Shown piece after piece: positions 46,976-64,000 of a stretch of DNA of 64,000 nt. Made by a program: the position numbers and the translations under genes. The stretch comes from Nocardioides sp. TRM66260-LWL (GTDB taxonomy: Bacteria > Actinomycetota > Actinomycetes > Propionibacteriales > Nocardioidaceae): the NCBI RefSeq assembly GCF_020075545.1, contig NZ_JAIQZK010000004.1, positions 248,001 to 312,000 on the forward strand, written 5' to 3'. Numbering within the stretch: position 1 is the first letter of the stretch; each line of letters starts with the position of its first letter. Under the pieces are notes generated by a model. The model made no database searches. It worked only from the letters and a program-made list of their open reading frames with translations, and had not been told where the DNA came from.

Positions 46976-46985
46976 AAGGATGGCC

Positions 46986-48122
46986 ATGGAGAGCGATCTC
47001 TTCGAGGAAGACCATGAGGCGTACCGCGGCGTCGTCCGCGCGTTCGTCGAGCGACACGTCGTCCCGCACCAGGACCGATGGGCCGAGGATCGCCTGATCG
47101 ACCGCGCAACCTGGCGCGCGGCCGGCGAGCAGGGTCTGCTCGGCCTCGGCGTGCCGGAGGAGCACGGCGGAGCCGGCGTGACCGACTACCGCTTCCGCAC
47201 CGTGCTGCAGTACGAGCTCGCACGGGTCGGCGCCTCAGCGCTGCAGTCCGGCTTCTCGACGAACGACGACATCGTCCTCTGCTACCTGCTCCGCCACGCG
47301 GCCCCTGAGCAGGCGAAGCGTTGGCTGCCCGGATTCGTGACCGGCGAGACCATCGGCGCGATCGCGATGACGGAGCCCGGCGCCGGGAGCGATCTGCGCG
47401 GCGTTCGCACAGCGGCCGTGCGCGAGCCGGGAGGCTGGCGACTGAACGGCTCGAAGACCTTCATCACCAGCGGCATCCTGGCCGACCTGGTGATCGTCTT
47501 CGCGACGACGGCGGACGGCTTCGGGCTCTTCGTCGTCGAGGACGGCGCGCCCGGATTCATCCGCGGGCGCAAGCTCGACAAGGTCGGCCTGCACGCGCAG
47601 GACACAGCCGAGCTCTTCTTCGACGGCGTGTGGGTGCCCGACGACCAGGTGCTCGGCGTGGTCGGACATGGCCTGGCCTACCTCAAGGAGAGCCTGCCGC
47701 TGGAGCGGCTCGGCATCGCGATCGCGGCCCAGGCCTCCGCGGAGGCCGTGCTCAGCTGGACGATCGACTACATCAAGGAGCGCACGGCCTTCGGGCGGCG
47801 CATCGCCGACCTCCAGGTGCCAGCGCACACGGTCGCACGCCTGCGGACCGCCGTCGAGGTGAGTCGGGCCTATGTCGACCGGTGCGTGCTGGAGCTCAAC
47901 GCGGGTCGCCTCACCGCCGTCGACGCGGCCAAGGCCAAGGCCTGGGCGACGCAGCTGCAGCACGACGTGATCGACGCAGGCGTCCAGCTGCACGGCGGCT
48001 ACGGCTACATGACCGAGTACCCGGTCGCCCGAGCGTTCCTCGACGCGCGAGTGCAGCGCATCTACGGCGGGACCAACGAGATCATGATGGAGATCGTGCA
48101 GAAGGACCTGCTGCGCGCCTGA
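46986..48122 (+). CDS. Acyl-CoA dehydrogenase
   Basis: A 378-residue acyl-CoA dehydrogenase of normal length. The FAD/substrate block is IGAIAMTEPGAGSDLRGV. WRLNGSKTFITSGILADLVI, TAFGRRIADLQVPAHTVARL and the C-terminal signature RIYGGTNEIMMEIVQKDLL are all present. I prefer ATG at 46986, which has GGAAGG seven bases upstream; ATG at 46980 would leave no spacing. It introduces the alpha-beta double bond in an acyl-CoA; the chain type is unknown. An operator-like palindrome precedes it and a strong bidirectional hairpin follows. Confidence 0.92.
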   Translation: MESDLFEEDHEAYRGVVRAFVERHVVPHQDRWAEDRLIDRATWRAAGEQGLLGLGVPEEHGGAGVTDYRFRTVLQYELARVGASALQSGFSTNDDIVLCYLLRHAAPEQAKRWLPGFVTGETIGAIAMTEPGAGSDLRGVRTAAVREPGGWRLNGSKTFITSGILADLVIVFATTADGFGLFVVEDGAPGFIRGRKLDKVGLHAQDTAELFFDGVWVPDDQVLGVVGHGLAYLKESLPLERLGIAIAAQASAEAVLSWTIDYIKERTAFGRRIADLQVPAHTVARLRTAVEVSRAYVDRCVLELNAGRLTAVDAAKAKAWATQLQHDVIDAGVQLHGGYGYMTEYPVARAFLDARVQRIYGGTNEIMMEIVQKDLLRA

Positions 48123-49655: not shown

Positions 49656-50843
49656 TCACAGGGCCCGCTCGGATCCGAAGAGCACGGAGCTCACCAGCGG
49701 AGCCATGGGGCCGCCGATCGAGAGCGACGTGTCGACGCCCCCGGCCCGCACCTGGTTGAGGGCGGTCCCCCGCACCTGACGGACGGCCTCGACGGCGAGG
49801 TTCATGCCGTTGACGAAGCAGTCCGCGATGTTGCCGCCCGCGGTGTTGACCGGCATCGAGCCGCTGCCGACGGTGAGGTTCTCGACCGTCAGCACCGAGC
49901 CGGCCTCCGGACCCGGCGGGCACAGGCCGTGGTCGATGAGCGAGGCGACGGCAGGGCCGCTGAAGTTCTCGTAGACCTGGACGACCTCGACCTCCGAGGG
50001 CGCCATGGTCGCCTGCTGCCAGAGCCGCTGCGCCACGCCTCGGCCAGCGCCGAGACCGGCGAACCCCGCGGTCGCGTAGGCCTCGTCGTTCTCGGAGAGG
50101 GCCGAGTAGCCACCGGGTGCGCCCTGCGCACCAGCGAGGACGACGGCAGGCGGCTGCCTCAGGTCGCGGGCACGCTCGGTCGCGGTGAGGATCAGGACCG
50201 CCGCGCCGTCGTTCTCCCGTGAGCAGTCGAAAAGGTGGAACGGCTCGACGATCAACGGCGACTCGTCGTATGCCTCCGCGGTCAGCGGTCGCCCGTAGCC
50301 GGCTGCCCTCGGGACGTTCTGCGCATGCGCGTAGGACGCGAGGACCAGGCTGCGCAGAGCCGAACGGGGCACGCCGTCGCTCTCCAGCATCCGCTGGGTT
50401 CGAAGTGCGCAGACCTGCGCCGGCGTCGCCACGCCATGGGCGAGGTAGTGATGGTCGAAGTAGTACTTCGCGTAGCCCAGGCGCCCGGTGTCGGCCTGGG
50501 TCATCCCCCGCACCACGGCGACGCACTCGGCCTGTCCCGTGGCGATCGCGGCTGCAGCCGCGACCACGGCGGCCGAGGATCCACCGCCGCCACCGCCCCA
50601 CACCATCGACGACCAGCGAAGCTCGTCGATGCCCAGCTCCGCGCCGAGGACCGGACCGGAGTGGTCGCCACCGGCGTAGGAGGTGAAGCCATCGAGCTCG
50701 CGAGGCGAGATGCCCGCGTCGGCGCAGGCCTCGAGGATCGCCTCGAGGACGAGCGCGCGCTCTCCCGAGGGCGAGCCTCCCCGTGGGTGCAGGACCTCCC
50801 CGACGCCGACGACCGTGGCGGCCCCGCGCAGGCCACCGCTCAC
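49656..50843 (-). CDS. Thiolase-fold lipid-transfer protein (Ltp/SCP-x type, possible retro-aldolase)
   Basis: The 395-residue protein has the thiolase fold of actinobacterial lipid-transfer proteins: RGAATVVGVGEVLHPRG, then GGGGGGSSAAVVAAAAAIAT, VEVVQVYENFSG and MPVNTAGGNIADCFVNG. The position where thiolases carry the nucleophilic Cys reads GGGSSAAV, so it is not a classic thiolase. Ltp2-type proteins act with a DUF35 partner to cleave beta-hydroxyacyl-CoA side chains. The coupled upstream gene here encodes exactly such a DUF35 protein. GTG at 50843 overlaps its stop (GTGA). Confidence 0.82.
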   Translation of the reverse strand: MSGGLRGAATVVGVGEVLHPRGGSPSGERALVLEAILEACADAGISPRELDGFTSYAGGDHSGPVLGAELGIDELRWSSMVWGGGGGGSSAAVVAAAAAIATGQAECVAVVRGMTQADTGRLGYAKYYFDHHYLAHGVATPAQVCALRTQRMLESDGVPRSALRSLVLASYAHAQNVPRAAGYGRPLTAEAYDESPLIVEPFHLFDCSRENDGAAVLILTATERARDLRQPPAVVLAGAQGAPGGYSALSENDEAYATAGFAGLGAGRGVAQRLWQQATMAPSEVEVVQVYENFSGPAVASLIDHGLCPPGPEAGSVLTVENLTVGSGSMPVNTAGGNIADCFVNGMNLAVEAVRQVRGTALNQVRAGGVDTSLSIGGPMAPLVSSVLFGSERAL

Positions 50844-51250
50844 GATGAGAGCCTCCAGCGAAGCAGCGACTGCGACGCCGCGGCCGGGGTGATCACATAG
50901 CCCTCCACCCGGTCTCCGATCCGGACGGAGGCATCTGCGGACAGCATCCCGAGCAGTCGGATGGGAGCGTCGTCGAGCGCGACCAGGACCGTCACGTAGG
51001 GGGCCCGCACGTCGAGCTCCGACATGACGTCCCGGTGGGTGCGGATCCAGGAGTAGACCGAGCCGCGTGGCGCCACCTCCTGCCAGAGGACCTCGTCGGA
51101 CCAGCAGGAGGCGCAGCGGACGCGGCCCGGCGTACGCCACACGTCGCAGGCGGCGCAACGCGGAAGCGCGATCACGCCTCGGGCGAGCCCGTCCCAGTAC
51201 GGCGCGTCGACGTCGTCGGCCGCTGGACCCAGGGGGTAGGTCGCGGTCAT
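50840..51250 (-). CDS. Zn-ribbon/OB-fold DUF35 protein (acyl-CoA-associated)
   Basis: A 136-residue DUF35 protein. A rubredoxin-like zinc ribbon with four cysteines (CAACDVWRTPGRVRCASC) is followed by an OB-fold domain (GSVYSWIRTH, then APYVTVLVALDDAPIRLLGM). DUF35 proteins bind and support thiolase-fold enzymes such as Ltp2 or HMG-CoA synthase-like proteins. It overlaps the NTF2-like gene by ATGA and the thiolase-fold gene by GTGA, which implies a stoichiometric complex. Confidence 0.9.
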   Translation of the reverse strand: MTATYPLGPAADDVDAPYWDGLARGVIALPRCAACDVWRTPGRVRCASCWSDEVLWQEVAPRGSVYSWIRTHRDVMSELDVRAPYVTVLVALDDAPIRLLGMLSADASVRIGDRVEGYVITPAAASQSLLRWRLSS

Positions 51251-51555
51251 CCCGGCGGCTCGATGTTCGCGAGTCGATCAGCGAGCCAACGTCCCTCGTG
51301 GCGCCATCCCGAACGAAGGCCGATGGAGCCGCTCTCGGTGACGTAGACGCACTCGCCGACCGCACGCTCGCCCTCGAGACGCATGTCGAGGATCCGCGCC
51401 GAGCCGACCGGCCCGCGCGGCACCTGCACGCCGGTGAAGATGCCGGGGAGCCCGGCTGGATCCATGTCGGCCAGCACGGACGCCGTGTCCCCTCGGACCA
51501 CGAGGTCGACGTGGCGCCGATAGACGGCCTCGAACTCGGCGAGACGATCGGTCAC
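51247..51555 (-). CDS. NTF2-like (SnoaL/ketosteroid-isomerase-like) small protein
   Basis: A 102-residue protein with an NTF2-like cone fold pattern (EFEAVYRRHVDLVVRGDTAS, then LEGERAVGECVYVTESG and SGWRHEGRWLADRLA). Such small proteins may be hydratases, isomerases or ligand-binding subunits. GTG at 51555 has AGGAG six bases upstream. It is the first gene of the four-gene operon, and a CTAATGTCATTAG palindrome lies 13 bases before it. Confidence 0.72.
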   Translation of the reverse strand: MTDRLAEFEAVYRRHVDLVVRGDTASVLADMDPAGLPGIFTGVQVPRGPVGSARILDMRLEGERAVGECVYVTESGSIGLRSGWRHEGRWLADRLANIEPPG

Positions 51556-51621: not shown

Positions 51622-53082
51622 TCAGACGAGCTCGAAGCGGGAGCCACCGGAGACCATGACGCTGGCCCCTTCGGCAGCGGTGACCGTCAGGTGGTCGATC
51701 ACGGCACGGGAGTCGCTCGCGGCCAGCACTCGGGCACCATCGCCGGTGCGGATCGACGCCATGGCGCGGTCAGGCTCCCCCTCGCGGTCGTAGCGCACCG
51801 TCCATGCCTCGAGAGTTCCGACGCCCTCGTGATCCAGTCGGATGGGAATGGGTCGGACGTCCGGCTCCAGGCGGTGCCGCGCGAAGGGCCCGGTCGGCCG
51901 CGGGCCGTAGACCCCCACGGCATGCTTGGTCAGGTATCCGCTGTTGGCCGTCACGAGCCCCGGGAGGCCGGTCTCGCGAACCGCGTCGAGCATCGAGGCG
52001 ATGGCGTGAGTCGAGTAGTTGTTCCAGGGACCTCCCGCGAAGGTCAGCCCCCCGGTGACCGTGAGCGATCGCGCCGGATCGTCGTCCGCGAGCCCGACCT
52101 CCTGGGCGGCCACCTGCACGGCCGACGGGAAGCAGGAGTAGAGATCCACCGGGCCCAGGTCCTCGACCCTCAAGCCGGCGTGGATCAGGGCCGCCGCGGC
52201 CGCCGCGCGGATCGCGCGCGAGCGGTGGAGGTCGGGTCGCGCGGCGATGGCTGCGGCGTCGGCCGCCTCCGCCCCCGAGGCGAGGAAGACCCACCGATCG
52301 CGGGGGACTCCCCACCGCTCGGCGGCTGCAGCGGAGCAGACGATGACCGCGGCGGACTGCTCGACGGAGTTGTTCGAGTTCATCAGCTTCGGATACGGCG
52401 AGGAGATCATCCGGTTGGACGCCGAGGGTGTCGCGATCTGCTCGGCCGAGTGGGCCCGCGGCGTCCACGCATGCGGGTTCTTCTCCGCGACCTCGCTGAA
52501 GCGTGCCCAGAGCCGGGAGATGCGATCCAGGTGCGCCTCGGGCGTTCGGCCGGCCGCGATCCGCAGCGCGCTTTCGAACAGCGGATAGACGTGGGCCGGT
52601 CGGTCGAGTCCTGCGGCCACCTCGCTCGGGTGCCGCATCGGCACGTCCGGGTGCCATGCGGTCGGCTCAAGGGCCTCGTCCTGCACCGTCCACTCCGGAC
52701 GGCGACCCTCCCGCTTGAGCCTCATGCGGGTCCGCCACGCCTCGGCTCCTCCGACGACCACGACGTCGCAGCGTCCGGCCGCGATGTCCTCCGCAGCCTC
52801 GTTGACCAGGGCTTGCGGGTACGAGCCGCCGTTGCCCGTGTAGACGGTGTGCCGGACGGCCGCGCCGAGCCGCTCGCCGACCAGCAGCCCGGGATCGCGG
52901 TAGCGCCAGCTCAGCATCCCGACGATCCGCACCGAGTCGATCGCGCGCGTCAGCGAGGGCGCCTCGGCGTCGGACGCGGCGGCACGCACCGCCTCGACGA
53001 TGAGATCGACGGGCTCCACCGGGTCTTCACGTCGGTTCAGCTGGCCGCCACCCACCAGCACCGGGGTGCGGGGGTCGATCAT
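51622..53082 (-). CDS. Acetyl-CoA acetyltransferase-like thiolase-superfamily protein
   Basis: The 486-residue protein starts IDPRTPVLVGGGQLNRRE, continues with GNGGSYPQALVNEAAEDIAA and YPKLMNSNNSVEQSAAVIVC, and ends with a C-terminal extra domain (TLEAWTVRYDREGEPDRAMA). The place of the thiolase nucleophile reads NGGSYPQ rather than a cysteine, so the standard thiolysis mechanism is doubtful. ATG at 53082 overlaps the reductase stop (ATGA). It is the last gene of the mce-linked operon and probably acts on the imported substrate as its CoA ester. Confidence 0.83.
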   Translation of the reverse strand: MIDPRTPVLVGGGQLNRREDPVEPVDLIVEAVRAAASDAEAPSLTRAIDSVRIVGMLSWRYRDPGLLVGERLGAAVRHTVYTGNGGSYPQALVNEAAEDIAAGRCDVVVVGGAEAWRTRMRLKREGRRPEWTVQDEALEPTAWHPDVPMRHPSEVAAGLDRPAHVYPLFESALRIAAGRTPEAHLDRISRLWARFSEVAEKNPHAWTPRAHSAEQIATPSASNRMISSPYPKLMNSNNSVEQSAAVIVCSAAAAERWGVPRDRWVFLASGAEAADAAAIAARPDLHRSRAIRAAAAAALIHAGLRVEDLGPVDLYSCFPSAVQVAAQEVGLADDDPARSLTVTGGLTFAGGPWNNYSTHAIASMLDAVRETGLPGLVTANSGYLTKHAVGVYGPRPTGPFARHRLEPDVRPIPIRLDHEGVGTLEAWTVRYDREGEPDRAMASIRTGDGARVLAASDSRAVIDHLTVTAAEGASVMVSGGSRFELV

Positions 53083-54731
53083 CGCGCCGCTCCCGCGAGG
53101 ACGTCGCGCTGCGCCGTCTCCGCGACGAGCTTGACCCTCGGACGCCGCTGAGCCCGGCCCTCGGCTCGCTCGTGCTCGTCGAGGACCCGCCAGTCGTCGA
53201 CGCCGTGAGCCTGGGGCACGCAGGTCAGCAGGTCGGTGCCGTCCGACACCGACAGGAGCCCGGCGGCGTGATCGGCCAGCACCGAGCGAACCGTCTCCTG
53301 CGCGCACCGCTTGTTCGTGCCGATGACGCCGTTGGCTCCGCGCTTGGCCCAGCCCGTGACGTAGACGCCGTCGAGCACGTGACCCTCCGCCCCGACGACA
53401 CGCCCCTCGCGGTGGGCGACGGGCGACCCGTCGCTGGGTGCGGGAAGACCCGGGACGTGGTGCCGGCGGTATCCGACGGCTCTGACAACCAGCCCGCACG
53501 CGAGGGTCTCGCTGCGATCGGTCGCCAGGAGGTGGTCGCGGTCGTCGGCGACGCCCATCCGGGTCTCCGCGATCGTCACCCCCTCGACCCGGTCGGTCCC
53601 CTCGATGCGTCGCGGTGCACCGTGGAAGCGCAGCCGCAGGACACGCTCGGCTCCGGACCTCCCCATCGCCTCGCGGAGCAGCTCCAACCGCAGGTTCATG
53701 ATCGGATCGGGGTGCGTCTCCGGCATCGCGATGCCGCCGGGGAGGTCGACGGCGAGCCCGAGGTCCTCGGACTCGAGCAGCGCGACGAGCTCCGGCGTCG
53801 TGAACGCCGCCTGGACCGGTCCGCGGCGTCCGACGACGACGACCTCGCGCACCCGGCTGCGACGGAGGGAGTCGAGCGCGTGGTCTGCGATGTCGGTGCG
53901 TGCGAGCACCTCGGGCGGCGAGAGGAGCACGCGCGCCACGTCCAGCGCGACGTTGCCGTTGCCGATCACGACGGCTCGCTCGTGCTCCAGCGGAACTCGC
54001 AGCGACGCGGCGTCCGGGTGGCCGTTGTACCAGGCCACGAGCTCCGTCGCAGCGATGCTGCCGGCGAGGTCCTCCCCGGGGATACCGAGGGCCCGGTCGG
54101 CGGCGGCACCGGTCGCGTAGATGACCGCGTGGTAGCGGGCGAGCAGATCGGCTGGATCGAGGTCTCGTCCAACCTCGATGCCCAGCAGCGCTCGAACGGT
54201 CGGGCGTCGCAGGACCTTCGCCAGCGCCTCGCCCGCCGACTTGGTGTCCTGGTGGTCGGGCGCGACGCCGAAGCGCACGAGTCCGCCGGGGGTGAGGAGT
54301 CGTTCCACGATGTCGATCCGGACGTCGAGCCCTCGCTGACCGAGCAGCTCCTCGGCGGCGTAGGCAGCCGAGGGTCCTGATCCCACGATCGCCACCCGCA
54401 GCGGCGCGACGCCCCCTGACTCCGCCGGTGGCGCGAGGCGATCCCGAGACTCGGGGGGCTTCACCGGCGGCGGAGGCGCCGCCAGGAACCAGCGTCGATT
54501 CATCTCCTCGAAGCGCGCTTGATGCGGCTCCAGGTCGTAGTCCGCCGAGATCGCCCCGACCGGACACACGTCGACGCAGGCGCCGCAGTCGATGCAGCCG
54601 TCCGGATCGATGTAGAGCATCTCGGCTGTCGCGTAGTCGGGCTCGTCGGGCGTCGGGTGGATGCAGCTGGTCGGGCAGACGGGCACGCACGCGGCGTCGT
54701 TGCAGCAGGCCCGCGTGATCACGTGGGTCAT
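53079..54731 (-). CDS. Ferredoxin-fused ferredoxin-NADP reductase (FprB type)
   Basis: A 550-residue fusion. Residues 1-80 form a 7Fe ferredoxin with CCNDAACVPVCPTSCIHP and CIDCGACVDVCPVGAI. Residues 105-520 form an adrenodoxin-reductase-like flavoprotein with FAD motif VAIVGSGPSAAYAAEELL, NADP motif VVIGNGNVALDVARVLL and GWAKRGANGVIGTNK. This matches FprB of mycobacteria. It would feed electrons from NADPH to cytochrome P450 or Rieske-type oxygenases. It overlaps the parvulin gene stop (ATGA), so its supply is tied to the transport operon. Confidence 0.92.
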   Translation of the reverse strand: MTHVITRACCNDAACVPVCPTSCIHPTPDEPDYATAEMLYIDPDGCIDCGACVDVCPVGAISADYDLEPHQARFEEMNRRWFLAAPPPPVKPPESRDRLAPPAESGGVAPLRVAIVGSGPSAAYAAEELLGQRGLDVRIDIVERLLTPGGLVRFGVAPDHQDTKSAGEALAKVLRRPTVRALLGIEVGRDLDPADLLARYHAVIYATGAAADRALGIPGEDLAGSIAATELVAWYNGHPDAASLRVPLEHERAVVIGNGNVALDVARVLLSPPEVLARTDIADHALDSLRRSRVREVVVVGRRGPVQAAFTTPELVALLESEDLGLAVDLPGGIAMPETHPDPIMNLRLELLREAMGRSGAERVLRLRFHGAPRRIEGTDRVEGVTIAETRMGVADDRDHLLATDRSETLACGLVVRAVGYRRHHVPGLPAPSDGSPVAHREGRVVGAEGHVLDGVYVTGWAKRGANGVIGTNKRCAQETVRSVLADHAAGLLSVSDGTDLLTCVPQAHGVDDWRVLDEHERAEGRAQRRPRVKLVAETAQRDVLAGAAR

Positions 54732-55804
54732 GGAGTGTCCTTCTCGGCGACGTCACTTGGGAGCGCGTCTGGGTCGGCGGGGCGGTAGGCGGGCGCATAG
54801 ACGACGTCGGCGGCGTCCAGCTGCTCACGCATGTAGGTGCGCCAGACCTCCAGGGAGGCCTCGGTGGTCAGCGATTCCAGGAGCGTCCGCTCGACCTCGG
54901 CGAAGGCGAGCGTCCGCCCGGCCTCCACGGCGTCGACGCGTCCGACGTTCCATCCGCTGGAGGTCTGCACCGGCCCGAAGACGGCTCCTCGTCGGGCGCC
55001 GAAGGCGGCCTCCGCGTAGGGGGTCTCGAGCTGCTCCTCGGTGACGGCTCCGAGGCGTCCACCCGCATCCTTGGTCTCGGCGTCGAGCGACACCGCTCTG
55101 GCGATCTGGGCGAAGCCGCGGCCGCTGCGCAGCAGGGCGATGACCTTCGTCGCCTGGGCGCGGGTCGAGACGACGATGTTCGACAGGACGCGACGCTCGG
55201 GCGAGCGCATGGCGCTGCGACGTGTGTCGTACTCCTGGCGTGCCTGGGCGGAGGTCGCTGCCGGCACCGCCTTGGTGACCTCCTCGTAGAGCCGCTGATT
55301 GAGCAGCGTGCGCCTGATCTCGTCGAGCACGTCGGCCTCGCTGAGACCGGCGGCGGCCAGGTACGTGGCGAAGGCTCGGCGATCGCCACCGAGCTGACTC
55401 GACACCAGGGAGGAGAGCTGGGACTGGGCCTTCGTCTCCGGGACGGTGATGCCGCGGGCCGCGGCAGCGCGCTCGATCACCAGGCTCACGGCCATCGACT
55501 TGGCCGCGTCCCTTCGGAAGGTGTCGAGCTGGGCGGGATCGCTGGGCTCCTTGACGCCGTACAGCGCGCTCAGGATCGACAGCCGGCGGTCCAGAGCGGT
55601 GATCGTCACGGCCGAGCCGCCGACCTCCAGAGCCACGTCGTCCGGAAGGGCCGCGCGGTGCCAGGGAAGCGACACGGTCGACCACGACGCCGTGGACACC
55701 AGCACCGCACCGCTGAGGGCGACGGCGAGTGCGACGGCGACGGCGAGCCAGGCCGAGCGACCACGCGGCGCGATCGTGACTCCAGGCAGGTGGACGCTCT
55801 TCAC
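54728..55804 (-). CDS. Membrane-anchored parvulin-type peptidyl-prolyl isomerase (SurA/PpiC-like)
   Basis: A 358-residue protein with an uncleaved or signal-like helix at residues 18-40 (AWLAVAVALAVALSGAVLV). A SurA-N-like helical domain follows at about 60-200, then a rotamase domain at about 205-310 (RRVLSNIVVSTRAQATKVIA, DAGGRLGAVTEEQLETPYAE, GPVQTSSGWNVGRVDAV). It would fold or chaperone exported proteins outside the membrane. GTG at 55804 overlaps the stop of the RND transporter (GTGA), suggesting service to the MCE or RND proteins. Confidence 0.84.
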   Translation of the reverse strand: MKSVHLPGVTIAPRGRSAWLAVAVALAVALSGAVLVSTASWSTVSLPWHRAALPDDVALEVGGSAVTITALDRRLSILSALYGVKEPSDPAQLDTFRRDAAKSMAVSLVIERAAAARGITVPETKAQSQLSSLVSSQLGGDRRAFATYLAAAGLSEADVLDEIRRTLLNQRLYEEVTKAVPAATSAQARQEYDTRRSAMRSPERRVLSNIVVSTRAQATKVIALLRSGRGFAQIARAVSLDAETKDAGGRLGAVTEEQLETPYAEAAFGARRGAVFGPVQTSSGWNVGRVDAVEAGRTLAFAEVERTLLESLTTEASLEVWRTYMREQLDAADVVYAPAYRPADPDALPSDVAEKDTP

Positions 55805-58128
55805 ACGGTCTCCTTGACGCGTGTCGCCGGACGTTCGGTCGGCGGCATCTCGGATCGGACGAGCGCGACACGTCGGTCGCGGCGGAGGTGAGGACGCGCG
55901 AGGAGGACGACGAGGTGGGCAGCCGCCAGCGAGGCGACCACGCCGAAGGCGAGCACCAGTCCGAAGTCGCGCAGCACGGCCAGCGTCGAGAGCCCGAGAC
56001 AGAGATAGCCGACCACCGCGGCACCGGCAGCCGTCAGGACGCTGCGGTGCAGCCAGGGCCGCTCGCGCTCAGCGGCGTCGAGCATGAGGGTGAACTCGCA
56101 CGACGTCACCGCGATCAACGCGCCGACGGCGAGCATCAGCGGGCTGAGCTCGACGCCCGCGACGCCCAGGCCGAGATAGACCCAGCCCGATGCGAGGATC
56201 GAGGCCGACAGCGCCTGCGCCGCCAGTCGGCCATCGCGGAGCCCCAGGGCGATGAGACCGCCCGTCATGACGAGTGCCAGCAGACCGATCAGCCAGCGGC
56301 TCGCCGAGACCGCGGCCAGCCCGCTCGCCGCCACCACGGGCAGTCCCACGACCTCGACGTCGTAGCCCGCCGGGGGCGGCGGAAGATCGCGCCTCAGCGA
56401 GCGCACCAGGGCGTCCTGGTCGCGGAGGTCGTCGAGGCGTACCCCGAAGGTGGAGGTCGCGGCCGATCCGTCGCCGGCCAGCACGGCATCGAGCAGGTAG
56501 GGCGGGACGAGACTCGCGCCCGCATCGACCTGCTCGGACGACGGTTCGGGCCCGAGGAAGCGCAGCAGCTGGGCCATGGTCAGCAGGGGACGCATCCGGT
56601 CACCGTGCTCGACGGCGATGCGCTCCTCGGCGTCGCGTGCCCAGGCCAGACTGGCCGGAGTGAGCGCGTGCGGGGCGTCCGGACCGCTCGGGCGGATCAC
56701 GAGGCTCACCTCGCCGCTGAACCCGAGCTCGCGCTCCGCGCGGTCCGCGTCTGCCAGCGCGGGGAGTCCGCGGCCCAACGCCTGGGGGTCGGCTTGCACG
56801 GAGATCCGACCCAGCGCGACGAAGCCGGCGACCGAGGCGGCGAGCGCCAGGACCAGCAGCCCCCCGACGGCCCGCCGACCGGGAGACCAGCGCGGCGTTG
56901 GCGCTCGGTCCGCGTCGGATCGGGCCGGTTCGATGGCGGGCAGCCGCCGTCCGAGTGCGAGCGCCCAGGCTGCGGTGACGACGACGCCGGCCGACAGCGC
57001 CAGGCCGAACTCGCGGACGAACGGGAGGCTCGAGATCCCGAGACTGGCGAAGCAGGCCACGGCGGCGCCCGCCGCGACCAGCACCCGCCGTCGTTCGCCC
57101 GGCTGGCTGAGGTAGAGCGGGAAGTCGGATCCGATGCCGAGGACGATCGGCAGGAAGGCCACGGCACCGAGGGACAGGGAGCGGTCGGCCAGCCCGAAGG
57201 CCGCGACGACCGTCGCGGTCCCGAGCACGGCGGTGAGCAGGGGCCGGAGGCGGTCTCGCCGGCGGCGGGACCACGGCACGAGGAGGAAGACGGATCCCAC
57301 GGCCGCGAGCGCGATCACTCCGACGCGTGGCGCATCCCGGGTGGCCTCGCGCGACATCGCGGCCGTCACGGCCGGCGCGCCGGAGACGAGGGGATCGCTC
57401 GTCTGCAGACCCTCGGTGCGAGCGTCCTGCACGGTGCTCCGGATGCGTTCGATCAGGTCCGCCGTCTGAGCCTGGTCCAGCCCGACCCGCGGTCGAACGA
57501 GGATCGTGGCGGCCTTGGCGTCGGGCAGGAGGAAGCGCCACTCGGGGCGCGGCTCGCCTGCTCGGTCGAACATGACGCTGCGGACGAAGCGCTGGTTGCG
57601 GACCACCGGCAACCCCATGGGCATCGCCTCGGTCAGCAGCGCGCCGTACCGACGATCGAAGGCGGTCAGCGCTCGGTCGACTGCCTGGGCCGCGTCGGCT
57701 CCGCTTAGACCACGCTGCCGGGCCTCTGCCCGGGCGGTGTTCTCGATGGCGTCCCGACGCCCGCTGATCTGGGCGAGGAGGTTGCGCATCGTGCTGGCGG
57801 TCTGGTTCAGCACGGTGCCCGGGCCGTAGACGACAGCCACGTCGTCCAGCCGGGCGATGGCACCCTCGAGGGCGACCAGCCGGGGAAGCTGGTCGGAGGA
57901 GGCGATCAGACCGTCCGGAGCGCTCCCGTGCAGCACCACCACGACGGGATCTGCTCCGAATCGTTCGTCGCGCTGCTGCAGCTGGTCGTACCCGCGATCG
58001 CCGGTCGGCACGAAGGAGCCCACCCCGGTGTCGATGGTAGCCCGCGACAGGCCGAGTCCGATCAGCGCGAGGACGCCGGCAAGGACCAGCAGCCGAGGGA
58101 TCGAGGAGCGGAGACGGCGAGGCGTCAC
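55801..58128 (-). CDS. RND/MMPL-family transporter
   Basis: A 775-residue RND-superfamily protein with two related halves. Each half has one helix, a large extracytoplasmic loop and five clustered helices. Family blocks include VGSFVPTGDRGYDQLQQRDE and LGIGSDFPLYLSQPGERRRV in the first half and LAVGALIAVTSCEFTLMLDA in the second, with related glycine-rich sections. It looks like the HAE3/MMPL type of lipid or hopanoid exporter. GTG at 58128 overlaps the last MCE gene by GTGA. In this operon it may hand lipids to or from the MCE tunnel. Confidence 0.87.
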   Translation of the reverse strand: MTPRRLRSSIPRLLVLAGVLALIGLGLSRATIDTGVGSFVPTGDRGYDQLQQRDERFGADPVVVVLHGSAPDGLIASSDQLPRLVALEGAIARLDDVAVVYGPGTVLNQTASTMRNLLAQISGRRDAIENTARAEARQRGLSGADAAQAVDRALTAFDRRYGALLTEAMPMGLPVVRNQRFVRSVMFDRAGEPRPEWRFLLPDAKAATILVRPRVGLDQAQTADLIERIRSTVQDARTEGLQTSDPLVSGAPAVTAAMSREATRDAPRVGVIALAAVGSVFLLVPWSRRRRDRLRPLLTAVLGTATVVAAFGLADRSLSLGAVAFLPIVLGIGSDFPLYLSQPGERRRVLVAAGAAVACFASLGISSLPFVREFGLALSAGVVVTAAWALALGRRLPAIEPARSDADRAPTPRWSPGRRAVGGLLVLALAASVAGFVALGRISVQADPQALGRGLPALADADRAERELGFSGEVSLVIRPSGPDAPHALTPASLAWARDAEERIAVEHGDRMRPLLTMAQLLRFLGPEPSSEQVDAGASLVPPYLLDAVLAGDGSAATSTFGVRLDDLRDQDALVRSLRRDLPPPPAGYDVEVVGLPVVAASGLAAVSASRWLIGLLALVMTGGLIALGLRDGRLAAQALSASILASGWVYLGLGVAGVELSPLMLAVGALIAVTSCEFTLMLDAAERERPWLHRSVLTAAGAAVVGYLCLGLSTLAVLRDFGLVLAFGVVASLAAAHLVVLLARPHLRRDRRVALVRSEMPPTERPATRVKETV

Positions 58129-59429
58129 CGGTCCATCTCCACGCGGGGGTACGTGCCGCGGTACGGCTTCGGGGATGCGGCGCCACCGGGCGAGGGGTAC
58201 GGGTTCACCCAGTGGAGCGCCGACAGGCCGGTCAGCTTGAGCGGGTTGTTGCGCAGGCTGTACTCGTTGAAGATCGGCGCCAGTCGGACCGGCTGGACCC
58301 CGTTCTCGATCGGCGCGTCGAAGGAGGCCCCGAAGTTCCCGAAGAACGAGCCGAGATCGAGCATCCACGGTCGCATGTAGGCGACCATCGGACTGACGTT
58401 GCGCAGCAGGTAGTCGGCTTGGGGCGCGACCGCCGTGAGGTTCGACGAGAGAGCCGGAACCTGGTCGAGGGTCGCGGGAGCTCGTCCGAGGGAGGCGTCC
58501 ATGGCGGGCAGGAGTCCCCGCAGGCTCGAGGTCACCGATGGCAGTCGCGTCGACGCGGCGCGGAGGTCCGGCGCGGCCGCGTCGAGGTCGCGGGCGACGG
58601 GGTCGAGGTCGGCGCCCAGCCCGTCGAGCGTCCCGGTCGCGGTGCCGGCCGCGTCGAGAAGCGCGGGCAGCCGCTGGACGGTCCGGGCGAGATCGTCCTG
58701 CTGGGAGGAGGTCGCCCGCGTGAGGGTGTCGGCGTTCCGGACGAGCTGGCCGATCTGGTCACGACCCGTGTTGAGCGCACCCAGGATCGTGTTGGCCTCG
58801 CGCACGAGGGCCTGCAGATCGGTGGACTGTGCCTGCAGCGCGTCGACGGCCGTGTAGCCGCCCCGACCGAGATCGCCGAGCCCGGTGAGGAGCTGATCGA
58901 CGGAGCCCTTCGTGCCGGTCGTCATCCGTCCCATCCTCGTCAGGAAGCCGCTGAGCGCGCGCCGAGTGGTGGGATCGAAGGTGGAGATCACCTCGTCGAT
59001 GTCGACGGCCGGGACGACGGACCGACCGGTGAGCGTCGAGCCCGCCGGGAGCTCGGGCCCGTCGCCGTCCGTCACCTCGACGAACGACTGGCCGATGACG
59101 GACTTCACGCCGATGCGCACCTTCGCGCCCCGATGCAGCGGCGCGAAGTCGGGGTCGAGCGCGATCGTCACCTCGGCCTGCCGGTCGACGACCCGCTGGC
59201 TGACGACCGAGCCGACCTTGACCCCTGCGATCCGTACCTCTCCATCGGGCTGGACGTTCTTGAGGTCTGCGGTGCGGAAGCTGACCTCGTATCCGCGATC
59301 CTGACCGGGCAGGTGTCCACCGGCACGGGTGAAGAGGTACACGAAGCCGAGCGCGCACGCGAGGACGATCGTCAGGACGACGGCGACCGGCTTGCGGCGG
59401 TCGATGCGGCTTCCGGTGTCGGCGACCAT
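58125..59429 (-). CDS. MCE-family protein (MlaD domain), fifth in visible order
   Basis: The protein (434 aa) has an N-terminal transmembrane helix (VAVVLTIVLACALGFVYLFT). An MCE/MlaD domain follows at about residues 45-125 (DLKNVQPDGEVRIAGVKVGS, GAKVRIGVKSVIGQSFVEVT), then a long helical region with hydrophobic repeats and a folded tail (FFGNFGASFDAPIENGVQP). MCE proteins form ring-and-needle tunnels that carry lipids across the envelope. ATG at 59429 shares one base with the previous stop (TGATG). The frame extends to 59588, but only as an overlap. Confidence 0.88.
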   Translation of the reverse strand: MVADTGSRIDRRKPVAVVLTIVLACALGFVYLFTRAGGHLPGQDRGYEVSFRTADLKNVQPDGEVRIAGVKVGSVVSQRVVDRQAEVTIALDPDFAPLHRGAKVRIGVKSVIGQSFVEVTDGDGPELPAGSTLTGRSVVPAVDIDEVISTFDPTTRRALSGFLTRMGRMTTGTKGSVDQLLTGLGDLGRGGYTAVDALQAQSTDLQALVREANTILGALNTGRDQIGQLVRNADTLTRATSSQQDDLARTVQRLPALLDAAGTATGTLDGLGADLDPVARDLDAAAPDLRAASTRLPSVTSSLRGLLPAMDASLGRAPATLDQVPALSSNLTAVAPQADYLLRNVSPMVAYMRPWMLDLGSFFGNFGASFDAPIENGVQPVRLAPIFNEYSLRNNPLKLTGLSALHWVNPYPSPGGAASPKPYRGTYPRVEMDR

Positions 59430-60676
59430 CAGCGGGTTCCCTTCGACGTGATGCCCTCGCCCTGCAGACCGCCGCTGGGGTTGGTGAGGTCGAGGTTGAC
59501 GTTGGCCCGGCCCATGCCGCCGTTGGCGTCGAAGAGGCTGAAGGCCGAGGAGGTCTGGTACACGAAGGCCGCCAGGTCCTCCATCCACGGCACGATCCGG
59601 CGCGTTGCCTGGGGAAGGAGCGCGGCCTGGGGCCTGAGGCTCCGCACGGACGCACGGGCGTCTCCGACGAAGGGCTCGAGATCCGCAGTCACCGGGCCGG
59701 CGCGGTCGACGACCGGAGCGGCGCCGGAGACGAACTGGCGGATGGCCGTCACGGTTCCCGTCAGATCGCCCAGGGCCTTCGGCAGCGTGCCGCTGGCCCG
59801 GCTGAGGTCGTCCAGGGTCGGATCCAGCTCGCCAGTGAGCTCGTCGACGCTGGCCATCGACCCGCGTAGCCGAGTCGTGAACCCGGGCAGCGACCGGATC
59901 GTCCGGGCGACCTGGGTGTCGCGGGAGGCGAGTGCGTCCAGAGCCTCCTGACTCGAGGCCACGAGGTCGACGAGCCGCTCGTCGTCGTCACCGGCCGCGC
60001 GGGCGATCTGGGAGAAGGAGGTGACCAGACGCGCGAGATTCTGCCGGCGGGTTCGTAGCTCGGCCAGCACCGGCTGGAAGCTGCGCATGGCTGCCGCGGT
60101 GTCGGTGAGGCCGGTCCCCAACGCCTGCGGGTTGCGGGCGGTGGCGACGTCGAGCTCGTTGAGCAGGCTCGTGAGCCCGAACCGGGCTCGCGCGTCGAGC
60201 TTGTCCAGGATCTCGTTCGGCTGCACGATCCTGGAGGTCTGGGCCAGCGGGATGGTCCCGCCGGCCGGCAGGGGACGCGCGGGCGGACCACCGGGATCGA
60301 GGGTCACGTACATGACGTTCAGCGGCGACTTCGTGCGCAGGAGGACCCGGGCGTTCTCGTAGACGGTCTGCTGCGGGTCGATGCTGAGGTCGACCATCGC
60401 CGTCCCGTGATCGGTCGGAGCGGCTCCGGTGATCCGTCCGACCTGGACGCCGGCGATGCGCACCTCCTGGAGCGACTGCGGCCGCACGGCAGGAGCCTTG
60501 TCGAACTCGGCGCGGAAGGTGAACGTCTTCGTCCACGGAGCCTGGAACGCCTGGTGCGAGAGGATGTAGGCGCCGCACGCGGTCGCGAGCGCGAGGCACA
60601 CGATCATCGCAGTGACGTCCCGACCCAGCCCCGGCGTGTTCCGCATCCGCTCGACGGCGGTCGTGAGCCGGCTCAT
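59429..60676 (-). CDS. MCE-family protein (MlaD domain), fourth in visible order
   Basis: The protein (415 aa) has an N-terminal helix VTAMIVCLALATACGAYILS. An MCE domain covers about residues 50-130 (EFDKAPAVRPQSLQEVRIAG, ENARVLLRTKSPLNVMYVTL), and a long coiled-coil-like section follows. ATACG resembles a weak lipobox, but the -3 residue is Ala, so a lipoprotein form is not supported. The start overlaps the previous gene by ATGA. Confidence 0.88.
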   Translation of the reverse strand: MSRLTTAVERMRNTPGLGRDVTAMIVCLALATACGAYILSHQAFQAPWTKTFTFRAEFDKAPAVRPQSLQEVRIAGVQVGRITGAAPTDHGTAMVDLSIDPQQTVYENARVLLRTKSPLNVMYVTLDPGGPPARPLPAGGTIPLAQTSRIVQPNEILDKLDARARFGLTSLLNELDVATARNPQALGTGLTDTAAAMRSFQPVLAELRTRRQNLARLVTSFSQIARAAGDDDERLVDLVASSQEALDALASRDTQVARTIRSLPGFTTRLRGSMASVDELTGELDPTLDDLSRASGTLPKALGDLTGTVTAIRQFVSGAAPVVDRAGPVTADLEPFVGDARASVRSLRPQAALLPQATRRIVPWMEDLAAFVYQTSSAFSLFDANGGMGRANVNLDLTNPSGGLQGEGITSKGTR

Positions 60677-62016
60677 CGCTGGAACTCCTGGCGTGCCGCC
60701 GGGAGGAGCTTCGCCAGCGCCTCGTCCAGGGCCAGGGGCTGGATCGTCGACAGACCCACGCCGGCCTGGAAGTTGAGCAGGCTGCCCTGGGCGTCCTGCG
60801 TCATCGACGCGCGGTCGAGGTTGACGATCATGTAGGCGATCTCCTCGTACATCTTGTTGTCGGCCTGGATGCCGCCGCCGCTGTTCGGGTACGGACCGTT
60901 CTTCTTGCCGCGCCAGGTGTGCGCCAGGTAGTCGAGGATCGGGCCGTCGACGCGCTTGATCACCGGACCGCGCACCGCGTCGACCACGGCCGTGGCGTCG
61001 CTCGCGGTGGGGACGAGCTGAGCGATGATGCGCTGCGCTCGGGCGACGATCGGCGGGAGCTGGGCGACCGTCGGTCGTGCCTCCCGCAGCGTCGGCTGGA
61101 GCACCTCGACGAGCGGTCCGAGCCGTTCGACCGCGGGCGTGATCGCACGGGTCGTGCGCCCCAGCCGCTGCAACGTGCGATCCAGCTTCGTGACGCCGCG
61201 GTCAGTGGCGTCCAGGGTGCTGGGCATCTGGGCGATGGTGGCCGCGAGGTCGTCGCTGCTGGAGGACAGCGCCGCCGAGGTGCGGTCGAGGTCGTCGATC
61301 ATCGCGCCGACGCGGGTCCGGCGCTGGTCCAGCACCTCGGCCGTCGACTGGAGGTAGGTGACCAGCGACGCGAGGTCCTGGGTCGGACGCGTTCCCTGGA
61401 GACCCCGGAGGAGGCTGCCCGCGTCAGGCAGCACCCCGGGGGCGATGCCGGAGAGGCGCCGCAGGCCCTGCGAGCCACCCTGCTCCAGGACGCGGTTCGT
61501 GTTGCGGACCAGGCCGCGGGTGGCGGTCCGCGTGTCGGCGGGGAGGGCGTCGAGGATCTGGTCGAGCTCGACGGGGGTGGCGGTGTCGTCGACCGGGATG
61601 ACGCCCTCGGCGAAGGGGCCCGAGCCGCCCGGCGTGAGCTCGACGCCGTACTGACCGCCGAGGATCGTGAGGGGTGCGACTCGCGCCGACGGATGGTCGC
61701 CGAGGCGGTCGCGTGCGCTGTCGTCGATGCGCATGGTCACCAAGGCGGTGCCCGCGTCCGTGCGGTCGACGCCGGTGACGACGCCGACCTGGAGGCCGGC
61801 CATCTTCACCTTGCTGATGTAGGGCTGCAGGTTGTAGTTCTGCGCGAACTCGGCGCGGATCACCTCTCGGCCCGAGAGTCGGGCCTTGATCTGGCTCTTG
61901 AAGGCCAGTCCTGTGATCACCACGGCGATCACGACCAGCAGGGCCAGGCCACGTCGGGCCCGCCGGGTGGTCGGGACCAGGGAGGAGGCGCGCGAGAGCG
62001 CGGTCGAGGCGGTCAT
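60673..62016 (-). CDS. MCE-family protein (MlaD domain), third in visible order
   Basis: The protein (447 aa) has a transmembrane helix (ARRGLALLVVIAVVITGLAF). An MCE domain lies at about residues 48-130 (NYNLQPYISKVKMAGLQVGV, VAPLTILGGQYGVELTPGGS), followed by a long helical region and a tail containing WRGKKNGPYPNSGGGIQ. The end of the product overlaps the next MCE gene (ATGA). No lipobox is seen. Confidence 0.88.
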   Translation of the reverse strand: MTASTALSRASSLVPTTRRARRGLALLVVIAVVITGLAFKSQIKARLSGREVIRAEFAQNYNLQPYISKVKMAGLQVGVVTGVDRTDAGTALVTMRIDDSARDRLGDHPSARVAPLTILGGQYGVELTPGGSGPFAEGVIPVDDTATPVELDQILDALPADTRTATRGLVRNTNRVLEQGGSQGLRRLSGIAPGVLPDAGSLLRGLQGTRPTQDLASLVTYLQSTAEVLDQRRTRVGAMIDDLDRTSAALSSSSDDLAATIAQMPSTLDATDRGVTKLDRTLQRLGRTTRAITPAVERLGPLVEVLQPTLREARPTVAQLPPIVARAQRIIAQLVPTASDATAVVDAVRGPVIKRVDGPILDYLAHTWRGKKNGPYPNSGGGIQADNKMYEEIAYMIVNLDRASMTQDAQGSLLNFQAGVGLSTIQPLALDEALAKLLPAARQEFQR

Positions 62017-62026
62017 CGTCGAGACC

Positions 62027-63277
62027 TCACTGGTAGCTGCGGCCGAAGGCGCGGCCCGGGCCGGGATAGGGATCGACGTCGGCGAGGGGGTCCTTCACGC
62101 TCGCGTTGTAGACCCCCGGGAACGCGAGCATCGCGCTGAAGTAGTGCTTAGTCGGCGAGAAGTGGCCGCTGAGCATGTTGTTGTTCGCGAGCAGATGCCC
62201 GGCGTCCGGCCACCAGGGAGCCATGCCGGCGAGGAACGGGTCGATCTGGTCGAGCGCTCGGGCGAGACGCCGGGTCAGGACCGGCCGGAGTGCCTCGGCA
62301 GCAGGGACGAGCGTCTCGACGGCGGGCCCGGCTGCGCTGGTGAAACGCTGCACCGTGAGGGCGACCGGCGGCGACTCACGGAAGAAGCCGCGGAGGTCGG
62401 GTGTCGCTCGGACCACGTCGTCGACCGCCGGCGAGAGACGCCGCATGGCCGAGGCAGTACGGGCGAGGGGACGGTCCACGGCGCGCAGCCCTTCACGAGC
62501 GGTGCGGAGCGTCGAAGGCAGGCGCTCGATCGTCTGGGACAGCGGTCGCGTGTCGTCGACGTTCACCGCCTCGAGCGTGGTGCTGGTCTGATCCATGAGG
62601 GAGGCCAGCTGGTTCTCGGAGCCAGCGAACTGGCTGGTGAGCTCGTCGCTGGTCGCCAGCAGCCGGTCGAGCTCCGTGCGGGGTGCTGCCAGGGCCCCGA
62701 CGACGTCGTCCGCACCGGCAAGCAGCCGTGGCGCCCTGCCGAGGACGGTGTGCAGGTCGTCACCGTGCCCCGCGAAGCCCCCGCCGAGCTGGGTCAGGGA
62801 CGTCGAGAGACCACGGCGCGCCGGCCGTGTGAAGGCCTGGAGGACGTCGTTGAGATCGGCGGCGTCCCTGGTGCGCGAGGTGGGGATCGGCGCGTCTCCG
62901 AGGGGGCCGGCCGCGGCGGTCCCGGGATCGAAGTCGACGTACTTCTTCCCGAGGGCCGACTCGTTCCCGATCCGAGCCTGAGCGTTCCGGTAGACGGGCA
63001 CGTCGCCGTCGAGCCTCATCGTCACCAGGGCGGCGCCGGCGTCGTAGGAGATGTCGGTGACCATGCCGATCCGCACGCCGTTCTCGGTGACCTTCTGCTG
63101 CGGCTTCATCGTGCCGACGTCCTCGAAGCGCGCCTGGACGGTGGTGTACCCCTTGCCGGGGAGCGGGCCGCCGCCCTGGACCGTGATCCCGATCCACGCG
63201 ATGAGCAGGGCGACGACGAGGGTCACGGCACCGATGCCGAGTCGCCGGACGTCGTTCCGGTGGAGCGGTCTGGTCAT
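62027..63277 (-). CDS. MCE-family protein (MlaD domain), second in visible order
   Basis: The protein (416 aa) has a helix at residues 13-33 (LGIGAVTLVVALLIAWIGIT). An MCE domain lies at about 40-120 (VGTMKPQQKVTENGVRIGMV, GNESALGKKYVDFDPGTAAA), then a helical needle-like region and a tail rich in aromatic residues (APWWPDAGHLLANNNMLSGH). ATG at 63277 overlaps the preceding gene (ATGA). The longer frame to 63754 is an overlap only. Confidence 0.88.
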   Translation of the reverse strand: MTRPLHRNDVRRLGIGAVTLVVALLIAWIGITVQGGGPLPGKGYTTVQARFEDVGTMKPQQKVTENGVRIGMVTDISYDAGAALVTMRLDGDVPVYRNAQARIGNESALGKKYVDFDPGTAAAGPLGDAPIPTSRTRDAADLNDVLQAFTRPARRGLSTSLTQLGGGFAGHGDDLHTVLGRAPRLLAGADDVVGALAAPRTELDRLLATSDELTSQFAGSENQLASLMDQTSTTLEAVNVDDTRPLSQTIERLPSTLRTAREGLRAVDRPLARTASAMRRLSPAVDDVVRATPDLRGFFRESPPVALTVQRFTSAAGPAVETLVPAAEALRPVLTRRLARALDQIDPFLAGMAPWWPDAGHLLANNNMLSGHFSPTKHYFSAMLAFPGVYNASVKDPLADVDPYPGPGRAFGRSYQ

Positions 63278-64000
63278 CGAGTTCCTCCGGTCGAGCCGAG
63301 CAGCTGGTTCAGGAGCGACTGCTCCTGGTCGGCCGTGAGGCCGGTCGCACTGGTCCTGTCGTCCTGCTGCGCGACACGGGATCGGCGTTCTGTGGCGGAC
63401 CGGCGCTGGCCGAGGAGCCCGCCGAGGAGACCCTGCGAGCCCTTGCTCGGGCTGACACCGGGCGATGCCGACCCCTTGCCGCCGCTCGAGGCGCCGCCCG
63501 AGCCGCCGCCGAGCAGACCGCCGAGCAGACCCGACACCGAGCCGGTGACCCCCGGCAGCACTCCACCGAGGTCGATCTGCGGCACCGAGGGCAGCACCTG
63601 GTCGGGGGTGCTGTTCCCGTCGCCGGGCGAGGCCTTGACGATCGACGGCAGGACGTCGGCTCCGAGGAGCGAGTTCAGAGACTCCGGCGTCACGTGGAAG
63701 ACGCCCCGGAAGTAGTGGCTGATGCCGTCGCGCCCGTTCGTGCTGAGCGACCACTTGCGCACGAAGGCCATGAGGTCGCCGAGGTGGCGGTCGAGCACCT
63801 GCTCGGTGGCCGGGTCGAGATTGCGGCTCGAGCGGCGCAGCTGGGGACCGTGCTCGCGCAGCGTTCGCGTAATCGGCGCGGCCTCCCGCAGCAGCTGGTC
63901 GGCTGCCTTGAACAGTCGGTCGAAGGAGGCGAAGGCCGGGGTGGCCTGCACCGTGAAGTCGGAGATCTCCCGCGAGATCTGGTCGAGATCCTGCGTGACC
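63274..64000 (-). CDS. MCE-family protein, C-terminal part (5' end outside window)
   Basis: The frame is open from the stop at 63274 to the window edge, about 241 residues. It shows the helical part of an MCE protein (VTQDLDQISREISDFTV, then AADQLLREAAPITRTLREHG) and a folded piece (LMAFVRKWSLSTNGRDGISH, FRGVFHVTPESLNSLL). A Gly/Ser-rich low-complexity tail (SGLLGGLLGGGSGGASSGGK) follows. The MCE domain itself lies beyond the window. Further mce genes and the YrbE permeases probably lie upstream. Confidence 0.8.
   Translation of the reverse strand, partial: VTQDLDQISREISDFTVQATPAFASFDRLFKAADQLLREAAPITRTLREHGPQLRRSSRNLDPATEQVLDRHLGDLMAFVRKWSLSTNGRDGISHYFRGVFHVTPESLNSLLGADVLPSIVKASPGDGNSTPDQVLPSVPQIDLGGVLPGVTGSVSGLLGGLLGGGSGGASSGGKGSASPGVSPSKGSQGLLGGLLGQRRSATERRSRVAQQDDRTSATGLTADQEQSLLNQLLGSTGGTR

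Follow-up and report, generated by a model that had tools for sequence, protein, structure and literature searches.

In this article we describe a run of genes at the end of a 64,000-nucleotide stretch of DNA from Nocardioides sp. TRM66260-LWL (the whole stretch is called the window below), which by sequence criteria encodes an MCE importer accompanied by a transporter of the RND family and a SurA/PrsA-like protein, PpiC. The window is C11:248001-312000, where C11 is a contig of the 3.9-Mb genome, and 248000 has to be added to a window position to obtain the contig position; genomes and other loci are cited by G and L numbers. The first-pass annotation had described nine genes running from 64000 to 51622, linked almost entirely by short overlaps, and had advised a search for YrbE genes upstream. 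Both points were confirmed. The nine minus-strand frames, the start codons of which are our choice, meet at eight junctions, seven being overlaps (six of 4 bases, one of 1 base) and the eighth a 10-base gap between MceC and MceD, and YrbEA and YrbEB are present beyond the window. In the direction of reading the genes are as follows:

C11:315746-316615, minus strand: YrbEA (PF02405), beyond the window and preceded by a 161-base gap further upstream
C11:314895-315749, minus strand: YrbEB (PF02405; 141 and 156 bits over the YrbE pair), beyond the window
C11:314064-314867, minus strand: ABC ATPase of MceG type (PF00005, 95 bits), beyond the window
C11:312815-314062, minus strand: MceA, beyond the window
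63274..64000, minus strand: 3' part of MceB (MlaD, 60 bits); the gene extends to C11:312818, which is window position 64818
62027..63277, minus strand: MceC, MlaD family (TIGR00996 135 bits, cut-off 140.5)
60673..62016, minus strand: MceD, MlaD family
59429..60676, minus strand: MceE, MlaD family
58125..59429, minus strand: MceF, MlaD family
55801..58128, minus strand: RND/MMPL-family transporter of 775 aa with an MMPL domain
54728..55804, minus strand: PpiC, rotamase domain with a SurA-like N-terminus
53079..54731, minus strand: FprB, ferredoxin and pyridine-nucleotide reductase, locus-specific cargo
51622..53082, minus strand: TLP1-type thiolase-fold protein with a type-1 additional C-terminal domain and a YSCF motif, locus-specific cargo

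The upstream extension completes the full set of two YrbE genes, an ATPase gene and MceA to MceF. Six MlaD matches, every one over the cut-off, lie in C11:307064-313963, and together with two permeases of the YrbE/MlaE family and the linked ABC ATPase they identify the locus, on sequence criteria, as an MCE importer. The nine-frame run would belong to the 3' part of a single long transcript, and the downstream end of the transcription unit is probably at 48197. When the stretch between 46000 and 64000 was scanned for patterns of sigma-70 promoters and of terminators, one site resembled a terminator and none a promoter; both results were within those of shuffled sequences and are uninformative at 74% G+C.

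The order YrbEA-YrbEB-ATPase-MceA-F-RND-PpiC is a conserved eleven-gene module. We scanned 84,980 species genomes with the RND alignment as the only query, via two peptide patterns, which gave 207 pattern matches; 124 of them were confirmed and the best 80 were kept. According to gene calling in these best 80 of 124 loci, PpiC came next in 79, MceF stood directly before the RND gene in 75, and six Mce genes were seen in 74. Mce genes missed by the gene caller in L037, L055 and L076 were recovered by tblastn, and L062 and L087 were taken out as their RND core is the same as that of L061 and L086. After this check PpiC was adjacent in 77 of the 78 non-redundant loci and six Mce genes lay upstream in 75; from the remaining three, L067 and L071 end at contig edges and L084 is a genuine exception. 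In 61 of 77 loci there is an overlap or direct contact between the RND and PpiC frames, and in 30 of 73 between those of MceF and RND. An extra frame stands between MceF and RND in L046 and L063, and in the latter, from Amycolatopsis saalfeldensis, the gene of a sigma-70 family factor is found between the two (L063:9275-9811). Since the full order was kept in 75 of 78 RND-anchored loci, the arrangement is not due to chance. The idea of a chance mosaic of functionally unlinked genes could draw on the FprB-TLP1 part, which is local and was seen in five loci, but the conserved order and its recurrence outside the class speak against it; it was rejected for MCE-RND-PpiC and we consider it hardly credible.

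The hosts of the RND-anchored loci belong to Nocardioidaceae, Pseudonocardiaceae, Protofrankia, Streptomyces and unclassified Actinomycetota. There were no mycolate bacteria among the best 80 of the 124 loci of the two-pattern scan, by which absence from mycolates is not established. Carriage on plasmids was rejected, as tblastn of the RND protein against 72,556 plasmid records gave zero matches at 1e-10. The module is rare, being present in 5 of 58 genomes of a near-relative set and in 3 of 296 genomes of a phylum sample (own genome counted in both), and in 7 of 298 in the order of G095; in the phylum-sample and G095-order searches scoring was limited to three candidates from each genome, at E 1e-30. 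Of the phylum-sample matches two come from beyond the class. In L118 the full module is present and behind it are an aldehyde dehydrogenase, a P450, a weakly SCP2-like frame (22 bits), an alcohol dehydrogenase and a ligase, while L119 shows the order ATPase-YrbEA-YrbEB-MceA-F-RND. At L119:10318-14249 RND is followed not by PpiC but by a frame whose DUF4386 match is weak and under the cut-off, and then by frames without family. A small membrane-type protein (approximately 72 aa, GxWGR motif) was detected at most 1.5 kb after PpiC at 51 of 76 sites (75 loci and the window), for example at L066:13821-14039; the loci of this count had also served to seed and iterate the profile. It was not found in the window, and the one member tested matched no Pfam family.

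Conventional mce clusters provided the comparison. The own genome has 24 MlaD matches, that is four groups of six, and one RND gene of this kind. In 37 genomes of the genus 612 MlaD matches add up, by our sum, to 102 six-gene clusters; the per-genome counts are all multiples of six, with zero in two genomes and a maximum in G033, where 66 matches make eleven clusters. Five of the 37 genomes together have ten such RND genes (the window and nine loci), all ten between MceF and PpiC, and ten of the 102 six-gene clusters are of the RND type. No RND- or PpiC-labelled frame (phmmer, E 1e-5) was present in the 20-kb windows of 41 non-RND clusters of the genus, 3 of which belong to the own genome, 18 to genomes that carry the RND gene and 20 to genomes that lack it. 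The first-pass annotation had called the MCE-RND-PpiC-FprB linkage unusual and had suggested a survey of gene order in other genomes: the MCE-RND-PpiC part proved to be both uncommon and conserved, whereas FprB, seen after PpiC in five loci, is outside the conserved unit. In the RND-type operons in view the ATPase gene lies between YrbEB and MceA, except in L091, where none was labelled, and in L119, where it is upstream of YrbEA; in the 41 conventional clusters it is directly upstream of YrbEA in 18 and elsewhere in L135 and L156, the remainder having none in view.

Phylogenetic trees separated the two types. In a YrbEB tree with 37 RND-type and 23 conventional rows the split had a support of 100/100, and in a second pair of trees, for YrbEB and MceA, with 36 RND-type and 41 conventional rows, it had an SH-aLRT of 100 in both. 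The RND-type rows were 34 of the 78 loci, the window, L118 and L119, with L039 left out of the second pair on account of its long branch. The RND-bearing Nocardioides rows sit among those of Pseudonocardiaceae and other classes and not with the conventional mce of Nocardioides; because of this grouping the RND transporter and its MCE type appear to have been inherited together and probably passed between genera. The same data bear on the suggestion that the system handles the cell's own envelope lipids, inward or outward, and that its catabolic neighbours merely recycle them. In other bacteria there are MCE systems that work on lipids of the envelope. HpnN moves hopanoids (PMC10942540). However, the patchy spread described above (5/58, 3/296 and 7/298) and the interleaved genera in the trees look like those of an accessory, transferred system, and the flank genes look dissimilatory, thus we judge this explanation to be distinctly improbable.

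With MmpL, HpnN, HAE3, Patched and NPC1 the RND protein shares the MMPL Pfam domain, which scored 48.7 bits over a cut-off of 20.5, and the RND fold; in contrast to MmpL and HAE3 proteins it is far under the NCBIfam cut-offs (18.2 against 874.7 bits for MmpL TIGR00833, 77.6 against 351.9 bits for HAE3 TIGR00921), and by these models it is outside both subfamilies as NCBIfam defines them. Its predicted model has a pLDDT of 92.3 and, by our count, twelve long membrane-type helices; the alignments used for folding, A3 and A4, held 60 and 51 proteins of the loci beside that of the window. The model matches AdeB (Z 36.9, root-mean-square deviation (rmsd) 5.8, 562 aligned), Patched1 (Z 36.8, rmsd 6.2, 627 aligned), AcrB (Z 35.8, rmsd 4.7, 498 aligned) and NCR1 (Z 35.2, rmsd 5.8, 623 aligned). 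AdeB and Patched1 are tied in Z and NCR1 and AcrB are near, therefore the fold does not separate a sterol transporter from a drug pump. The window protein has an Asp (Asp335) in transmembrane helix 4 (TM4) and a Glu (Glu678) in TM10, and profile alignment places the former on an Asp of MmpL5; we take these acidic residues to be the proton relay of RND pumps. The TM10 Glu is kept in 78 of 80 aligned members, and the TM4 position is occupied by Asp in 40 and by Tyr in 33.

By profile the solved relatives of the RND protein are MmpL5, a named exporter, MmpL4 and HpnN, which is in favour of an alternative where it would be an independent efflux pump for toxic substrates or for intermediates (alcohols, aldehydes, acids) made by the catabolic enzymes, co-expressed with the MCE genes but without a part in import, and PpiC would be its assembly factor or a general chaperone. 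Efflux is often co-expressed with catabolism, which also counts for this alternative. On the other hand, the linkage of MCE and RND persists where the catabolic neighbours differ, and YrbEB and MceA of the RND-associated type group apart, which co-regulation alone would not predict. We regard efflux as unlikely, though not to the same degree as the envelope-lipid explanation.

PpiC consists of an N-terminal hydrophobic helix, a SurA/PrsA-like domain and a parvulin domain, and its best solved relatives are PEB4, SurA and PrsA. Its predicted model (pLDDT 91.2) is nearest to PrsA 6vj4 (Z 19.1, rmsd 9.6, 197 aligned), and the parvulin domain superimposes on 6xd8 with a Z of 18.9 and an rmsd of 1.2 over 94 aligned residues. 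The SurA-like N-terminal domain and the parvulin fold are features of PrsA/SurA-type foldases and are shared with PEB4 as well. In the window protein both active-site His of parvulins are replaced by Asn (N209, N286); in the family Asn209 occurs in 76 and Asn286 in 73 of 79 members, aligned with the parvulin His of PEB4. Because both His are Asn in most members, PpiC is probably not an active isomerase. In this respect the parvulin of the first-pass annotation has to be corrected. PpiC differs from PrsA, SurA and PEB4 also in being tied to one operon type.

The comparison with described systems was made on the accessible portions of the cited texts. Mycobacterial-type mce operons have in common with the present one two YrbE genes, six Mce genes and an Mkl-type ATPase (PMC1810536), and Casali and Riley had already pointed out in 2007 that mkl adjoins mce operons of Nocardioides and Amycolatopsis (PMC1810536). 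They differ in what lies downstream, where Mas proteins are encoded in the mycobacterial type (PMC1810536) and RND and PpiC here (no Mas profile was run), and in the place of the ATPase gene, which is here between YrbEB and MceA. By text search PMC1810536 has zero occurrences of 'RND', 'MMPL', 'PpiC' and 'parvulin', and an MCE-RND-PpiC operon was named in none of the titles and abstract openings among the open-licence literature matches listed. In the mycobacterial Mce1 complex an Mce needle stands on YrbEAB-MceG with the accessory membrane protein LucB bound (PMC9882608), and these are the points of likeness; LucB and LucA are small membrane proteins, and LucA and MceG are said to be encoded elsewhere (PMC9882608), whereas here the 775-aa RND protein and a membrane-anchored PpiC are encoded within the operon. 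BstA is another RND-family protein, the periplasmic domain of which binds sterols (PMC10942540). Since RND and PpiC are fixed in it, the locus is a variant of MCE.

The genes that follow PpiC differ from locus to locus. FprB and then TLP1 were found after PpiC in five loci (the window, L024, L033, L034 and L036), therefore FprB was rejected as a member of the conserved module; together with TLP1 and the genes downstream of it, it is local cargo. A space of 66 bases separates TLP1 from the next frame, and the gaps between the four frames that follow are -4, -4 and +25:

51247..51555, minus strand: 102-aa protein without family match, present in four of the five FprB-type loci
50840..51250, minus strand: ChsH2-type zinc ribbon/OB-fold (DUF35) protein (PF01796, PF12172)
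49656..50843, minus strand: Ltp, thiolase-fold protein with a YENF motif, best solved relative 6ok1
48197..49630, minus strand: aldehyde dehydrogenase, with which the transcription unit probably ends
46980..48122, plus strand: acyl-CoA dehydrogenase, convergent neighbour, which also adjoins the aldehyde dehydrogenase gene in L024 and L034
46247..46909, plus strand: TetR-family regulator, upstream of the acyl-CoA dehydrogenase

Close to the end of the cargo genes there is a further TetR regulator, with an MftR-type C-terminal domain (45538-46089, minus strand), and at 39193-44901 on the same strand a protein of 1902 aa that contains RHS repeats and matches SpvB weakly, under the cut-off.

FprB is a fusion of an FdxA-like ferredoxin (FdxA models reach 60 bits over residues 1-83, against a cut-off of 125) with an FprA-like NADPH-ferredoxin reductase (FprA 304 bits, residues 110-537). 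Seven further 'FprB' labels in the flanks were discarded, as they belong to one family of short ferredoxins (representative 106 aa). The YSCF motif of TLP1 is present in all five loci and resembles YDCY and YDCF, given for the aldolases Sal and SLP in the available part of PMC12329534; this likeness is by described motif. The first-pass annotation had named TLP1 a thiolase-like enzyme, and the thiolase fold is there, but because the motif is like that of retro-aldolases it may be no thiolase and TLP1 may be a retro-aldolase. The 102-aa frame, the DUF35 protein and Ltp follow in the four FprB-type loci other than L033. Ltp has its best solved match in 6ok1 (186 bits), the Ltp2 of Thermomonospora curvata (PMC12329534, available part), and the overlapping stand-alone DUF35 gene recalls, by sequence and adjacency, the Ltp2-ChsH2(DUF35) aldolase of steroid side chains. 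In all four loci YENF stands in place of YDHF and Phe at the position of Tyr344, the catalytic acid in the roles described for the Ltp2 motif residues (PMC12329534, same part); by these replacements Ltp is Ltp2-like only and not a full Ltp2. It may nevertheless be a retro-aldolase rather than a thiolase, and the DUF35 protein is its likely partner.

Upstream, past the 161-base gap and on the same strand, genes of an alcohol dehydrogenase, an SCP2-domain protein, a P450, a ferredoxin and an aldehyde dehydrogenase were found, followed by those of a weakly GNAT-like protein, a Rieske oxygenase, a 151-aa frame, a ferredoxin reductase, an enoyl-CoA hydratase and an acyl-CoA ligase. The alcohol dehydrogenase is of the NDMA-dependent type (533 bits, cut-off 440), and the best solved relatives of the P450 are an entry named CYP125MRCA (224 bits) and, near to it, CYP101D1 (206 bits). 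Mycofactocin genes (MftC, MftD, MftE, MftF) are situated about 18 kb or more beyond YrbEA, outside the window at L113:8603-15089 (C11 about 333.6-340.1 kb), together with a mycofactocin-coupled short-chain dehydrogenase/reductase and an MftR-like regulator that scored 209.5 bits against a cut-off of 224.9. The idea that import is linked to oxygenase-dependent catabolism was supported by the P450 with its ferredoxin, the Rieske oxygenase and the reductase upstream, and lipid import serving such catabolism is plausible; FprB, which had been cited for it, need not serve the P450, since that enzyme has an adjoining ferredoxin gene and a reductase gene some kilobases off.

In the 4 kb downstream of 71 RND-type and 41 conventional loci we counted nine catabolic labels. 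Acyl-CoA ligase was present in 18 of 71 RND-type and in none of 41 conventional flanks and alcohol dehydrogenase in 10 of 71 and none of 41, aldehyde dehydrogenase in 4 of 71 and 4 of 41, and P450 in 5 of 71 and 1 of 41. When the flanks were taken over their full length, 10 of the 78 loci had a member of an SCP2-like family and 12 one of an alcohol dehydrogenase family. Pfam SCP2 was matched by 10 of 11 SCP2-like proteins (own genome, nine of the ten loci, L118), and the NDMA-type model at 1e-60 by 6 of 14 alcohol dehydrogenases (own genome, twelve loci, L118).

As to the substrate, KshA has a single match in the genome, on contig C2, where a conventional mce cluster is situated too, therefore classical steroid uptake is probably not the task of the operon and a classical, Mce4-like steroid importer was not favoured (other ring genes were not searched for). 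Near KshA on C2 (L115, L116) there are weakly labelled DUF35-, Ltp- and acyl-CoA-dehydrogenase-like frames and two P450-like frames. In N. simplex steroid-induced transport was tied to the mce operon KR76_12195-12230 (PMC7593942, 2020, available part), which has eight genes by our count of its tags, a conventional operon size. The substrate is probably a hydrophobic compound other than that of classical steroid uptake; that it is terpenoid or steroid-like is our guess, held with rather less than even confidence.

The conserved gene order, the MCE proteins that group apart from the conventional ones, the motifs and the predicted folds lead us to propose, with moderate confidence, that the eleven genes encode a distinct actinobacterial type of MCE transporter, in which the RND protein and the SurA/PrsA-like protein are fixed subunits or dedicated partners. 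Several points weigh against it. Gene linkage alone does not prove a complex. In L084 the RND gene adjoins a divergent mce operon without PpiC, and PpiC is lacking in L119. The TM4 Asp is missing in 40 of the 80 RND members, in which the family again differs from MmpL and HAE3, so that it is doubtful whether this half works as a standard proton-driven pump. In the flanks ferredoxin was commoner in conventional loci (10/41 vs 0/71), the seven labels other than ligase and alcohol dehydrogenase showed no excess in the 4 kb of RND-type loci, and the nine labels together, which derive from the proteins of the window locus itself, made no difference (36/71 vs 16/41, P 0.25). All conventional rows of the trees belong to a single genus, with no mycobacterial mce operon among them, and the trees are midpoint-rooted and carry a long-branch warning (L039, L013, L119, L012 and others).

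From the distinct-transporter reading we infer complex formation, a transport direction, a chaperone role, a pathway and a class of substrate. On top of YrbEA/YrbEB and the ATPase, MceA-F would assemble as a hetero-hexamer into a hydrophobic tunnel, through which a hydrophobic substrate would be imported at the cost of ATP. The RND protein beside the tunnel could shift lipid among the membrane, the periplasmic space and the tunnel, and so help to load the tunnel or clear leakage, and the membrane-anchored PpiC might act as a chaperone or scaffold for the extracytoplasmic domains of the Mce and RND proteins, not as an isomerase. Each locus would carry its own cargo behind the transporter. Here the cargo and the upstream genes may hydroxylate an alkyl or alicyclic lipid, oxidise it to the acid and form the CoA ester, which would then be shortened by beta-oxidation or retro-aldol cleavage; the importer would thus feed a hydrophobic compound into catabolism of the P450/mycofactocin/aldolase type.

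A more specific version, which we put forward tentatively and hold to be rather doubtful, is a lipid importer with two motors, where an inward-working RND protein exchanges substrate with the ATP-driven tunnel and a dead parvulin serves as assembly subunit. Its steroid variant is opposed by the conventional size of the steroid-induced N. simplex operon (PMC7593942, available part). If the two-motor version were true, bulky lipids would have an uptake system of their own in actinobacteria other than the mycolic-acid bacteria, in which, according to the accessible part of a 2016 survey, steroid uptake systems had not been identified (PMC4810484).

MCE systems are important lipid importers of actinobacteria, and it is a question by which way substrates get into and out of their tunnel. 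A type that inherits an RND transporter and a chaperone-like protein in a block with the MCE genes gives a direct genetic handle on it in soil bacteria. Furthermore, MCE loci of the RND type mark sites where new lipid-degrading pathways may be found.

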